Positions 17,789 through 22,313 of a DNA stretch of 64,000 nucleotides are shown here, piece by piece; the stretch's first letter is position 1, and each line of letters begins with the position of its first letter. The DNA comes from Candidatus Kryptobacter tengchongensis (lineage in GTDB: Bacteria > Bacteroidota > Ignavibacteria > Kryptoniales > Kryptoniaceae). The DNA is taken from positions 62,001 through 126,000 of the forward strand of contig FAON01000004.1 of NCBI GenBank assembly GCA_001485605.1. The letters run 5' to 3'. The notes below the pieces were generated by a model that saw only the letters and a list, made by a program, of their open reading frames with translations, searched no databases and was not told the origin of the DNA. The translations under genes and the position numbers were made by a program.

Positions 17789-20086
17789 ATGGATGAGTTA
17801 ATTTATGGACATAACCAAGAGAAAAACATAGTTGCGGTTCAACAGTTTGATGAATCAACCGTCCGAATTTACATAAGGGAAAAAGACACCGTAAGAGAGG
17901 AAATAAGAAAATTTTATCCATTCTTTTTCTTAAGCGATAAATCTTATATTGAGGGGTTTAACAAAAAATTTTGGCTTAAAAAACTTGCCGGTAACAACTT
18001 CTATCAATACGCCTGTGCCTTTGAAGATTTAACCGATATGTGGAATGCGATAAGATACATTTTGCGAAATTACAGCAATAAACATATGATAAAGGTTGAA
18101 TCATATATAGATACGGATATAATTTACCTTCGTCCCGACCCAGTTCATCAATTTTTGCTTCAAACTGGAATCACCCTTTTCAAAGGGATGGAATTTAATG
18201 ATGTGTATCGGATTCAACTTGACATTGAGACATACTCAAAGCATAGATTCAGTAATCCAGAAAGAATTGAAGATAGAATCATTCTCATTTCATTAACTGA
18301 TAACAGAGGATGGGAATATATAATTGACGGTCGCAAAAAATCAGAAAGACAGATGTTAATTGAACTTGTAGAGATAATACGCAAGAAAGACCCTGACATC
18401 ATTGAGGGGCATAACATTTTGAACTTTGACTTGCCTTATCTCATAAAAAGAGCAGAATTAAATGAAGTTGATCTTTCAATCGGAAGAGATGGAAGCAAAC
18501 CCAAAATAACAACAACGACCTATGACCGTGAAACGGTTTTTACAGGAATTGAAATTTATGGAAGACATATAATTGATACACTTATCCTTGTTCAATTGTA
18601 TGATTTTGTAAAGCGTGAGTTTGAAAGTTATTCACTCAAATATGTTTCAAAGTATTTTGGCATTACATCCGAAGATAGAATTTACATCCCTGGAGAAAAA
18701 ATTGCGTGGTATTGGGATAATGACCCAGATAGTTTAGTAAAATACGCTCTTCAAGATGCGCACGAAACAAGAAAACTTTCTGAACTTCTCACACCCCCAT
18801 ATTTTTACCTTACTCAGATGTTGCCATTTTCTTTTTGGCAAGTAATAAAATCTGGCTCCTCATCAAAAATTGAATCATTACTTGTTAGGGCTTATTTGAA
18901 GAGACGACATTCAATCCCCAAGCCTGATACGGGATTTCAAACCACAGGTGGTTACACGGATATATTTTATACTGGGGTATTTGAAAATGTAGCCCATGCG
19001 GATATTGAATCGCTTTATCCATCAATCATGATAAAGTTTAAAATTGCCCCACAAAAAGATGAACTCGGGATTTTCCTTCAAATGCTTGAAAGTTTGACAA
19101 AGATGCGCCTTGAGGCAAAGCACAAGATGAAAAACGCAACGACACCTGAAGAAAAATCAAAATATGACGCGGTACAATCCGCATTTAAAATTTTAATTAA
19201 TTCATTTTACGGCTATCTTGGATATAGCAGAGCTATTTTCAATGATTACGAAAGCGCCGATAAAGTAACCACAACCGGGCAGAAAATTTTGAAAAAACTT
19301 ATACTTGAAATAACAAATAGAGGTGGGAAGGTTATAGAAGCAGATACGGATGGGATTTACTTTATCCCGCCTGAGGAATTTAGCACAGATGAAGAAAAAG
19401 TTAAAGAATTTGTCAAAGATATCGCTTCAACCTTACCTGAAGGAATAAACCTTGCCTTCAACGGTATTTACAAAAAAATGCTAAGTTATAAAAAGAAAAA
19501 TTATGCCCTGCTTGACAAGAACGGAAACATAGAAATTAAGGGTGCTTCACTTATCTCAAGGGGAATGGAACCATTTGCAAGAAAGTATATAAGTGAATGT
19601 GTCAAATTTTTACTTAACAATGAAATTGAAAAAATCCATGAACTTTATAAATCCCTCTTTAAATCAATCGCCGAAAGAAAAATTGATATTTATGAGCTTG
19701 CGAAAACAGAAACATTGCGGGAACGACTTGATAGATACCAAGAACTCGTTAGACTTGGGAAAAGGAATAGAAGTGCAGCTTACGAGCTTGCCATTGCAAG
19801 TGGGCGAAATTACAGACAGGGGGATAAGATAACTTATTACATCACTGGCTCAAGTCCCGATGTTCGGTCATTTGAAAATTGTAAACTTGTTGATGATTGG
19901 AATCCATTAAGAAGAGATGAAAATGTTCAATATTACCTCTTTAAATTGAATGATTACACAAGAAGATTTGAAGTCTTCTTCAAACCAGAGGATTTTAAAA
20001 AAATTTTTTCATTAAAGGATGGGCTAAATTTTGACGATGTGCAGATAGTGACCAGAAAAATTTCAAGGGAAATTGATTTTGATTAA
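17789..20086 (+). CDS. family-B DNA polymerase with 3'-5' exonuclease
   Basis: All catalytic motifs are visible in 765 residues. The exonuclease has ExoI DIET with Asp145/Glu147, ExoII N212-F-D214 and ExoIII Y319...D323. The polymerase has motif [10 protein letters not shown] from Asp405, motif B with Lys467 and YG at 474-475, and motif C DTDG at 519-522. The protein is compact, close in length to archaeal replicative PolB and E. coli Pol II, with no extra domain. In a bacterium such an enzyme probably acts in repair or damage tolerance rather than replication (inference). It starts one base after the rRNA methyltransferase. Its stop overlaps that of the convergent B12-binding gene, so no terminator separates them. 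Confidence 0.93.
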
Positions 20087-20526
20087 GCGACTTTTTGCTT
20101 CTTGTTTTTTTCAAACCATTCTTTAATAAAATTAACGATCTCTGTTGTCAGAGTCCCAGGTGTAAAAATTTCAGCAACACCCATCTCTTTGAGCTTTGGT
20201 ATATCTTCATCTGGTATTATCCCCCCACCGATTAAAAGGACATCATCAAGACCCTTCTCCTTCATCAATTTTATTATTTTAGGAAAAATCGTCATATGCG
20301 CCCCGCTCAAAATACTAATGCCGATAACATCAACATCTTCCTGAATCGCAGCCGAGACTATCATCTCAGGTGTTTGCCTCAATCCTGTATAAATAACCTC
20401 CATTCCAGCATCTCTCAACGCAGCTGCTACAACCTTAGCCCCTCTGTCGTGACCATCAAGCCCTGCTTTTGCAATCAATACTCTTATCTTTCTCTCCATT
20501 TTCTCTTCGGTGGTTTTGTTTTTCAT
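20083..20526 (-). CDS. cobalamin-binding domain protein (methylmalonyl-CoA mutase C-terminal type)
   Basis: The 147-residue protein is a stand-alone B12-binding Rossmann domain. The axial-ligand motif AGLDGHDRG (D24-x-H26-x-x-G29) is the hallmark. ISILSGAH and [11 protein letters not shown] follow, as in the C-terminal domain of methylmalonyl-CoA mutase. It would bind adenosylcobalamin as the small subunit of a split acyl-CoA mutase. The large substrate-binding subunit is not in this window. The start at 20526 abuts an 11-base motif shared with two other genes. It converges tail to tail with the polymerase gene, and it makes the B12 import operon at 57184-60796 relevant. Confidence 0.92.
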
Positions 20527-20581: not shown

Positions 20582-21637
20582 TCATGCTGAATGAAAACGA
20601 ATTACAAATTTATTTCCAACTTGTTCAGAAGGCTCAACAATGATATGACCACCGTTCAATTCAATAATCCTCTGAAAAATTTTCAAGGCAAAAAGATTAT
20701 AACTGGGTTTATATTCAGAAAAAAGGTATGGGCTAAACAAAGTTTTGGCAGATTCAATTGTCAACTTTTTTGCTTCATCACGAATTCCTACAAAAACAAA
20801 TTTACCATCACTCCCCGCCCTTGTAACTTGAGAGATATGGATTTTTCCATTAAATGACATTGCCTCCGCTATCGCCTCAAAAAAAGTTAAAAACCCTATC
20901 TCAATCCAGTTCTCGTTTCCCTTTACGAGCGAATCCCTCCCAAAACTAAACTCAAAATTCACACCAGAAAATTTTTCCCTTATTTGCTCTGCAACTTTCT
21001 TAAGCAATAAGTTAATATCAAAAACTTTGATCTCAATCTCCTCAACCCCAGCTGAAATATCGTTAAGCCGTATAAAATATTCCGAAAGCTCAAACCATTT
21101 TCTCATTCTATTATAGTTCTCACGCAGGATATTTTTCATCTCCTCCCCGATTTCTTCACCTTCCAATATCATTTCAATAATTCCCCTTATAGATGAAAAG
21201 AGCTCTTTAACTTCACTTATAAAGAATTTTTCCGTCATCAATTGAACTTTTTTCGCTTCATTTTCAAGCGAACGCATTCTTAAAACAGATTTTACACGAG
21301 CGACAAGTTCCGTGAACCTTATTGGCTTATAAAGATATTCAACAGCACCGAGGTTAAAGCCACGCTCAAGATTTTCCTCGTCAACATATTGCCCAGTTAG
21401 AATTATAACAGGAATTTCTCTTGTGATGGGATTTTGCTTAAGTTTGAAAAGAGCAGTGAATCCATCCATAACAGGCATGCTTATATCAAGAAGTATAAGC
21501 TCTGGTTTTTTCTCCTGAGCAAGGGTTAACCCCGCAAGTCCATTATCTGCTGTTATGACATCATACCCCTCACTTTCAAGTGCATTTTTAAGTGTTTCTC
21601 TTAGTTCCTTTTCATCATCAACTATAAGGATTGCCAT
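20582..21637 (-). CDS. receiver domain fused to a degenerate histidine-kinase-like core
   Basis: I start at the ATG at 21637, where the receiver begins (MAILIVDDEKE). An upstream in-frame start would lie inside the preceding gene. Residues 1-120 are a complete receiver with Asp7/Asp8, phosphorylatable Asp51 and a Lys in LYKPI. The following about 230 residues resemble a HisKA plus HATPase core, but the expected phosphoacceptor His is absent (ISEVKELFSSIRGI). The N-box Asn is also not seen (FLTFFEAIAEAM), and the C-terminal G-boxes are weak. It ends with ALKIFQRIIELNGGHI as true kinases do. It probably works as a phosphorylation-controlled, non-kinase output or a very divergent kinase. Confidence 0.7.
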   Translation of the reverse strand: MAILIVDDEKELRETLKNALESEGYDVITADNGLAGLTLAQEKKPELILLDISMPVMDGFTALFKLKQNPITREIPVIILTGQYVDEENLERGFNLGAVEYLYKPIRFTELVARVKSVLRMRSLENEAKKVQLMTEKFFISEVKELFSSIRGIIEMILEGEEIGEEMKNILRENYNRMRKWFELSEYFIRLNDISAGVEEIEIKVFDINLLLKKVAEQIREKFSGVNFEFSFGRDSLVKGNENWIEIGFLTFFEAIAEAMSFNGKIHISQVTRAGSDGKFVFVGIRDEAKKLTIESAKTLFSPYLFSEYKPSYNLFALKIFQRIIELNGGHIIVEPSEQVGNKFVIRFHSA

Positions 21638-21647
21638 TTTTAAAATT

Positions 21648-22208
21648 TTATTTTGTTTGGGAAGAAACGGTTTGTTCCTGTGCCGTTCCCACTCCCGCCG
21701 TTTCTTCCCCGATGACAAGTTTCTCCTCAAACTCTTTAACTTCCATCAGAAGTTTCTCTATTCTCCTGCATCCCTGTTCTATTGCCTTAACATCTCTCAA
21801 TGTCTCATTATCATATGGAAATCTTCTCTCTATCCTCGCAGAAGCGCTCATTATTATGGTCAGCGGATTGTAAATCAAATCCCTCAAAGAGAAGGTAAAA
21901 TCCTTCACTGCTTTTAACCTTGCAATTTGAGTTTCATACTGTTTAATCTGTTCCATCCTCATTTTTTCCTCTCTGTGTCTCTGCTCCTGCAAATTAACAA
22001 GCTTCACAAATAAATAAGATAATCCCCATATCCATAACAGCGAATCAAAATGAGTGAATATATCAGAAACTGATACTATCCCCTCTTTTACCCTCTTAAA
22101 AAGATCAAGTGTCGTGAAAAGGTAATAAAGGTAAATTATAACGGCTGAAAAAAGCGCGGGATGTTTCAATATAAACCCTTCTACAAACTCACGCCATATT
22201 TTTTTCAT
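21648..22208 (-). CDS. membrane protein with coiled coil and a His-less HisKA-like helix
   Basis: The 186-residue protein has two membrane segments (about 15-33 and 52-70). A long charged coiled coil follows (KLVNLQEQRHREEKMRM, about 70-98), then FTFSLRDLIYNPLTIIMSA. That last stretch resembles the dimerisation box of histidine kinases (SH.LRNPLT.I) but has no histidine at the phosphoacceptor position. No ATPase domain follows. It lies ten bases before the receiver gene and is preceded by a strong GGAGG site, so the two products probably work together. I do not recognise a named family. Confidence 0.6.
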   Translation of the reverse strand: MKKIWREFVEGFILKHPALFSAVIIYLYYLFTTLDLFKRVKEGIVSVSDIFTHFDSLLWIWGLSYLFVKLVNLQEQRHREEKMRMEQIKQYETQIARLKAVKDFTFSLRDLIYNPLTIIMSASARIERRFPYDNETLRDVKAIEQGCRRIEKLLMEVKEFEEKLVIGEETAGVGTAQEQTVSSQTK

Positions 22209-22211
22209 CTC

Positions 22212-22313
22212 TTAAACCTCCGTTTGATTTTTAGAACTAACGAGCGGAATTTCAACCCTAAAACTTATTTCCTTGTCAATCTTCCTATCATGCTCTTTAA
22301 TTTTTTGCAACAT
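22212..22313 (-). CDS. possible 33-residue protein at the head of the kinase-like operon
   Basis: An ATG at 22313 lies just downstream of a good promoter. It opens 33 codons ending in a TAA that overlaps the spacer after the GGAGG site of the next gene, a common sign of translational coupling. The product MLQKIKEHDRKIDKEISFRV is followed by EIPLVSSKNQTEV. The FRVEIPL end is reminiscent of the last strand of histidine-kinase ATPase domains, so this could be a remnant. It has no Shine-Dalgarno sequence. Real translation is uncertain. Confidence 0.35.
   Translation of the reverse strand: MLQKIKEHDRKIDKEISFRVEIPLVSSKNQTEV

Follow-up and report, generated by a model that had tools for sequence, protein, structure and literature searches.

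A conserved Kryptonia gene pair joins a membrane-anchored DHp protein carrying Asp at the phosphoacceptor position to a receiver fused with a degenerate kinase core

The window, a stretch of 64,000 nt of DNA from Candidatus Kryptobacter tengchongensis, carries on its minus strand a pair of genes, MP and then RR, which the original prediction had described as a signaling module built from pseudo-kinase parts. The features of the locus are as follows.

20582 to 21637, minus strand: RR, 351 aa, a receiver plus a degenerate DHp and a degenerate CA domain (pseudo Rec-HK; Pfam, alignment, and structure model, in 7/7 genomes)
21290 to 21631, minus strand: receiver domain of RR, residues 3–116 (PF00072, E 7.7e-29), with Asp51 at 21485–21487
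21023 to 21274, minus strand: DHp-like helical hairpin of RR, with S, N, G, or R in the His column (model and alignment)
20585 to 21022, minus strand: CA/HATPase-like domain of RR, in which the N, G1, and G2 box residues are lost (Pfam, structure match, and alignment)
21648 to 22208, minus strand: MP, 186 aa, a membrane-anchored DHp-only protein from a class-wide family with 96 analyzed members
21993 to 22157, minus strand: hydrophobic helices of MP, about residues 18–37 and 55–72 (hydropathy of MP and of the family average; low-confidence model)
21909 to 21992, minus strand: putative coiled-coil linker of MP, residues 73–100 (sequence and model)
21711 to 21908, minus strand: HisKA-type hairpin of MP, with Asp110 (21879–21881) at the His position and Asn114 (21867–21869) at the phosphatase position
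22212 to 22313, minus strand: relic of 33 codons left by a deleted sensor histidine kinase, whose C-terminal tail it represents, with the homologous part at about 22212–22283 (synteny and alignment test)

We found that MP and RR are adjacent and co-directional in all seven genomes sampled from the genus (the window's own genome, G000, and relatives including Candidatus Kryptonium, Chrysopegis, and Thermokryptus, with relatedness given by labels that the search tool assigned), with 5 to 11 bp between the MP stop codon and the likely RR start; the two-gene order thus recurs in relatives, as would be expected from the original prediction. Identity to the window copy ranged from 86% to 92% for MP and from 59% to 76% for RR, and no broken copy of either gene was found among the seven genomes. 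MP was absent from all 13 genomes searched in a family of the same order (f2). A scan of the locus for promoters and terminators returned weak consensus matches only.

The receiver of RR is complete, with Asp51 intact as originally noted: this residue shows no variation across the 7 genomes, and neither do the acidic pair and the Lys-Pro, which gives RR the full set of features of a response regulator receiver. The predicted fold of the part behind the receiver is that of a DHp followed by a CA domain, although its Pfam HATPase_c score (19.9 bits) falls below the cut-off (26.4 bits) and HisKA gave no Pfam match in RR. Alignment (MAFFT) of the seven RR sequences with intact REC-HisKA-HATPase homologs from related families revealed that the catalytic residues are lost in all seven. 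Specifically, the His column holds S, N, G, or R, the N-box Asn is replaced, DxGxG has become DE[AT]xK, and GxGLGL is gone. The absence of the phosphoacceptor His and the N-box Asn from this region had been predicted, and the loss extends to G1 and G2, leaving RR with none of the catalytic hallmarks of a histidine kinase; because the N, G1, and G2 residues are lost, no ATPase is left in the window pair. Measured against a Rec-HK of the LvrB type, the structure model of RR keeps the REC-DHp-CA order, with neither the catalytic His nor an active CA domain. This model (built, as was that of MP, with five close sequences as input) had LvrB as its best Foldseek match (8vc9, E 2.2e-16), followed by ZraS, HK853, and DivL, while VIA-align gave Z-scores of 18.5 to the CA domain of ThkA (3a0z) and 18.0 to DivL (4q20); the pseudo-core structurally matches both DivL and RetS. 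Residues and predicted fold together make RR a pseudo Rec-HK whose receiver is of the working type. In a tree of the post-receiver part, RR stands beside a second Rec-HK from its own genus (e.g., G000:C8:230830). This second protein (L055:6816–7871; G000:C8:230830–231858), also a pseudo Rec-HK, has Gln in place of His, has lost the G1 box, and is present in 6/7 genomes.

MP agrees well with the membrane partner originally described, i.e., two segments, a coiled coil, and a dimerization box without His: hydropathy places the segments at residues 19–37 and about 55–72, the box reads SLRDLIYNPLTII, and the only His residues of the protein (16, 53, and 78) all lie outside it. In a profile comparison, Asp110 is placed opposite the kinase His (hhalign to kinase DHp, E 3.1e-05), so that comparison with kinase relatives sustains the original description for both proteins. 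Asp110 is present in the MP of 7/7 genus genomes, in which MP therefore has no phosphoacceptor His of a kinase. The hairpin also lacks the His of a phosphotransferase of the Spo0B or ChpT type (a DHp-like dimer with His), Spo0B being a DHp-like His phosphotransferase, and no ATPase (HATPase) domain was found in MP. The notion of a pseudo-kinase module is accordingly right in that the parts are kinase-derived and devoid of His and ATPase motifs, but MP, having no HATPase region, is not a full pseudo-kinase. Against Pfam HisKA (PF00512; cut-off, 26.9 bits), the window MP scored 17.2 bits; among its relatives, L107 (29.8), L111 (35.4), and L105 (31.4) scored above the cut-off and L110 (15.9) below it. 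NCBIfam holds no family for MP, the Pfam HisKA cut-off is reached by some members only, and the family seemingly lacks a name. The structure model of MP is weak (pLDDT 70.6), and Foldseek returned nothing for it at E ≤ 0.001, with DHp domains as the best matches (E about 1.4).

Full-length MP relatives are confined to the window's own class, as revealed by a profile search with 21 strong matches in 395 phylum genomes, and the family is present in 78 of the 391 class genomes searched by profile; a scan with the single MP protein retrieved four loci, all in Kryptonia. The phosphoacceptor column of the 96 complete members holds 54 His, 38 Asp, 3 Glu, and 1 Gln. In the MP tree (rooted at the midpoint), one branch with a support of 99/97 parts a His clade (54/54 His) from an acidic clade comprising all Asp, Glu, and Gln members, and MPs of both clades sometimes co-occur in one genome. 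Within the acidic clade, 41 of 42 members have an acid in the His column, which ranks 17th of 177 columns by conservation. Across the family, Asn is found at position +4 in 92/96 members, Pro at +5 in 96/96, and an acid at +1 in 21/96. The missing His of MP, far from being a local oddity, reflects an Asp (or Glu) that is conserved within a large family. His is taken as the ancestral state of the column because it is the rule among HisKA domains, independently of the MP tree. Since the change maps to one branch, the column is conserved, +4 and +5 are kept, and the +1 acid is mostly lost, the His-to-acid change is, as far as sequences tell, an old and selected state. According to Willett and Kirby (PMC3510030), HisKA kinases such as CrdS require the +1 acid for kinase activity alone and the +4 Thr/Asn for phosphatase activity alone, and the residue pattern in MP would be that expected for docking or phosphatase function minus kinase function. 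In one relative (L117:3376–4368, genome G271), the membrane hairpin of MP is fused to a complete histidine kinase; this fusion is probably a later event, since it is nested in the His clade.

Among the 96 members, which are not independent and whose neighbor counts track family lines, tadA adjoins MP in 37 of the 54 His-clade cases, and prfA lies farther out together with one more conserved gene (L053, L105, L111, L113, L116, and others), and 12 His-clade MPs lie beside two-component genes. A same-strand two-component neighbor accompanies 17 of the 38 Asp-type MPs (7 from the window's genus, 5 from family f24, and others with hybrid kinases) and is missing for the remaining 21 and for all Glu and Gln members. 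In family f24, a stand-alone REC gene lies immediately upstream of MP in 5/5 cases, at distances from a 4-base overlap to 11 bp. In family f13 (L054:5857–8343, L104:3937–6433, L177), an Asp-type MP comes after two genes, one with sigma-70 region 2 and one that is zinc-finger anti-sigma-like, these domains coming from a Pfam run on L054 only.

The order of the window pair is found again in family f17 (L114:2848–4569, L181, L198, L204), where the gene directly after a His-bearing MP encodes a REC-HK of 367–370 aa that has Asn in the His column but seemingly intact N, G1, and G2 boxes. These motifs suggest that the f17 pair represents complementary halves of a split histidine kinase. In the split histidine kinases CheA3/CheA4 and Hik36/Hik43, the kinase parts are spread over two neighboring proteins (PMC3591291, PMC7656254), a pattern that f17 fits by motif, whereas both halves of the window pair are devoid of His and ATPase motifs. 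RR and the f17 partners were considered as orthologs and rejected as such, as they fall into separate, strongly supported tree groups, with RR beside its genus paralog. Because the f17 partners are separate from RR in this tree, the arrangement of a His-less REC-HK beside an MP gene is best read as having originated at least twice, independently.

Upstream of MP lies the 33-residue frame, which the original prediction had placed before the membrane protein and had described as ending in FRVEIPL. Its actual end is FRVEIPLVSSKNQTEV, and rather than being a part of the module, it is the surviving tail of an ordinary sensor kinase, deleted here but complete in two relatives. Specifically, the gene immediately upstream of MP in G002 (Chrysopegis) and G006 encodes a full-length sensor kinase, which by longest frame measures 571 aa in the former and 603 aa in the latter and combines six or seven hydrophobic segments and PAS with a HisKA that contains AHNIKNPL and an intact HATPase; in G002, MP lies on one side of this gene and a divergent FtsX-like gene on the other. 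A 79-codon frame in G005 matches the last part of this kinase (58 aa aligned, 76% identity), and the window frame aligns with the kinase tail at a score reached by 1 of 4,083 translated window stretches (presumably the frame itself) and by 2 of 5,000 shuffles. No recognizable kinase remnant was found at the syntenic site in G001, G003, and G004, and the gap between MP and the FtsX-like gene measures 263–339 bp in these three genomes and G000. A search for the kinase ortholog elsewhere in the genomes that lack the full gene found none, the best matches being paralogs of about 40% identity (G005 is 71% complete). Two other identities were rejected: the frame is not a small regulatory protein, since it is not conserved in G001, G003, and G004 and matches the syntenic kinase tail, and MP did not arise by duplication from the DHp of the lost kinase, a domain with which it shares no BLASTP similarity and just the general DHp relation seen in profile comparison. 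The simplest history of the locus would be a three-gene operon (kinase-MP-RR) that later went without its kinase, the loss of His in MP and RR predating, on the same comparisons, the loss of the kinase. The unusual split noted originally is thus real as a two-gene pair, but the pair is what remains of a three-gene operon.

Within the genus, dN/dS ranged from 0.02 to 0.05 for MP, from 0.02 to 0.09 for the receiver, and from 0.10 to 0.23 for the RR pseudo-core, the receiver evolving more slowly than the pseudo-core. Between kinase-less genomes (G000/G004 and G001/G003), the corresponding values were 0.02–0.03, 0.04–0.06, and 0.10–0.17. Since dN/dS is low between kinase-less genomes, the MP–RR pair appears to be functional without the upstream kinase.

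We infer that MP and RR are in contact, and our preferred reading, to which we assign a probability of roughly 45%, is that MP acts as a membrane dock for phosphorylated RR, with or without phosphatase action, while RR acts by its shape. MP would be a membrane-anchored DHp hairpin that, having no ATPase domain or phosphoacceptor, has been retained so that the phosphorylated receiver of RR can dock on it. The phosphate donor for Asp51, no longer encoded in the operon, would be a different cellular kinase or a small phosphodonor; phosphorylation would alter the helical core that follows the receiver, with the output being the shape of RR, kept at the membrane by MP. The acidic residue in place of His precludes autokinase and His phosphotransfer reactions by MP; because the Asn used by HisKA kinases for hydrolysis of receiver phosphate is retained, MP probably also dephosphorylates RR or sets the lifetime of RR~P. 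The ordinary sensor kinase upstream would have been the original input, deleted later in the window lineage.

Both the shape switch of RR and its reading by MP at the membrane are proposed because of the precedents of LvrB and DivL. In LvrB of Leptospira, phosphorylation at the N-terminal receiver changes the shape of the helical core that follows (PMC13269768); RR shares its architecture, as its best Foldseek match indicates, but LvrB has His161 and is an active kinase, whereas RR has lost the His and the N, G1, and G2 box residues. In DivL, a His-less DHp recognizes a phosphorylated receiver, binding DivK~P with no phosphatase activity (PMC4211667). DivL resembles the window pair in its replaced His, its retained kinase fold, and its docking of a phosphorylated receiver (proposed for MP), but it is one PAS-DHp-CA protein with Tyr at the His position, while MP has no CA domain, two membrane helices, and Asp, and RR is separate. 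By analogy, control of a partner by a shape change of RR is plausible.

Docking of phosphorylated RR by MP is consistent with the close, same-strand arrangement of the pair in 7/7 genomes, with purifying selection on both genes, also between kinase-less genomes, and with the combination of a held acid, near-constant +4 and +5 residues, and a mostly missing +1 acid, read in the light of the CrdS and HisKA mutants; MP relatives also adjoin receivers, as in f24, and the DHp of DivL binds its phosphorylated receiver without His. On the other hand, about half of the acidic-clade members have no same-strand two-component neighbor, the model of MP is weak, and the residue before Asn114 is Tyr in the window's genus versus Asn in most of the MP family. 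As to phosphatase action, DivL binds DivK~P yet shows none, and the H371A change in CrdS reduces phosphatase activity (PMC3510030). A broader view, which we advance tentatively as a possibility below even odds, is that the acidic-clade MPs make up a widespread class of phosphatases or phospho-sensors that dock receivers at the membrane, a class derived from a kinase by ATPase removal and acid fixation, and that with a pseudo Rec-HK they may form a signaling module that has no catalytic kinase part and still works after deletion of its own kinase gene.

The alternative that survives best, although we consider it somewhat unlikely, is that MP or RR serves as a pseudo-kinase antagonist or activator that tunes a true sensor kinase in mixed dimers or clusters, in the style of RetS, which acts on GacS, or of RocA-CsrS and DivL-CckA, with the RR receiver just gating this effect. 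The original kinase-MP-RR order of the locus, the structural match of the RR pseudo-core to DivL and RetS, and about 20 other kinase-like matches in G000 as possible targets all speak for such a role; however, four genomes have lost the syntenic kinase and a fifth retains a truncated form, yet MP and RR are constrained, and no other kinase partner is indicated. RocA is a pseudo-kinase that sits in the membrane with seven segments and carries an ATPase-like domain at its C-terminus (PMC6635533). Like RocA (membrane-bound) and RetS (hybrid), which are kinase relatives without kinase activity that act on a partner kinase, MP and RR are probably regulatory; they differ from RocA in its seven segments and ATPase-like domain, and MP–RR has no known partner kinase.

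We find it doubtful that MP is a mere membrane anchor or scaffold that localizes RR, with its Asp and Asn being structural. MP is indeed better conserved than RR, and the same hairpin is joined to a complete kinase in G271, but the near-invariant Asn and Pro and the held acid suggest more than a tether. The Corynebacterium pseudokinase ChrS, in which the CA domain was lost by frameshift and the membrane part plus DHp alters signaling (PMC9491836), resembles MP in this composition; ChrS, however, is laboratory-evolved and retains its His, whereas MP belongs to an old natural family.

Decay, with MP and RR as leftovers of the lost kinase operon, is highly improbable: the kinase has decayed in 5/7 genomes and the pseudo-core evolves faster than the receiver, but dN/dS lies far below 1 in every part, with purifying selection between kinase-less genomes by which decay was rejected, all seven genomes have unbroken copies, and the loss of His is older than that of the kinase. 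Least probable of all is a split kinase or relay in which MP or RR would take phosphate on another residue (e.g., Asp110) and pass it onward, for which the f17 pair, with the same order and apparently complementary halves, offers a model, but the RR of the window's genus has also lost its N, G1, and G2 box residues.

A description of the MP–RR arrangement was not found in the open-access literature, and MP–RR would be a new type among the known pseudo-histidine-kinase modules (DivL, RetS, and RocA). Whereas these have so far been known singly, the MP family provides nearly 100 sampled members, a single old, selected His-to-acid change, and a sister clade that keeps His; the two clades amount to a natural experiment on the role of a DHp without kinase chemistry. 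The complementary halves of f17 offer a testable path from a split kinase to a kinase-less module, and the 33-codon relic is a direct sign that the MP–RR pair outlived its own kinase.

Beyond RR, the window hosts a gene for a family B DNA polymerase of 765 aa (17789–20086, plus strand; PF00136 and an exonuclease domain), which is convergent with a B12-binding mutase-subunit-like gene (20083–20526).
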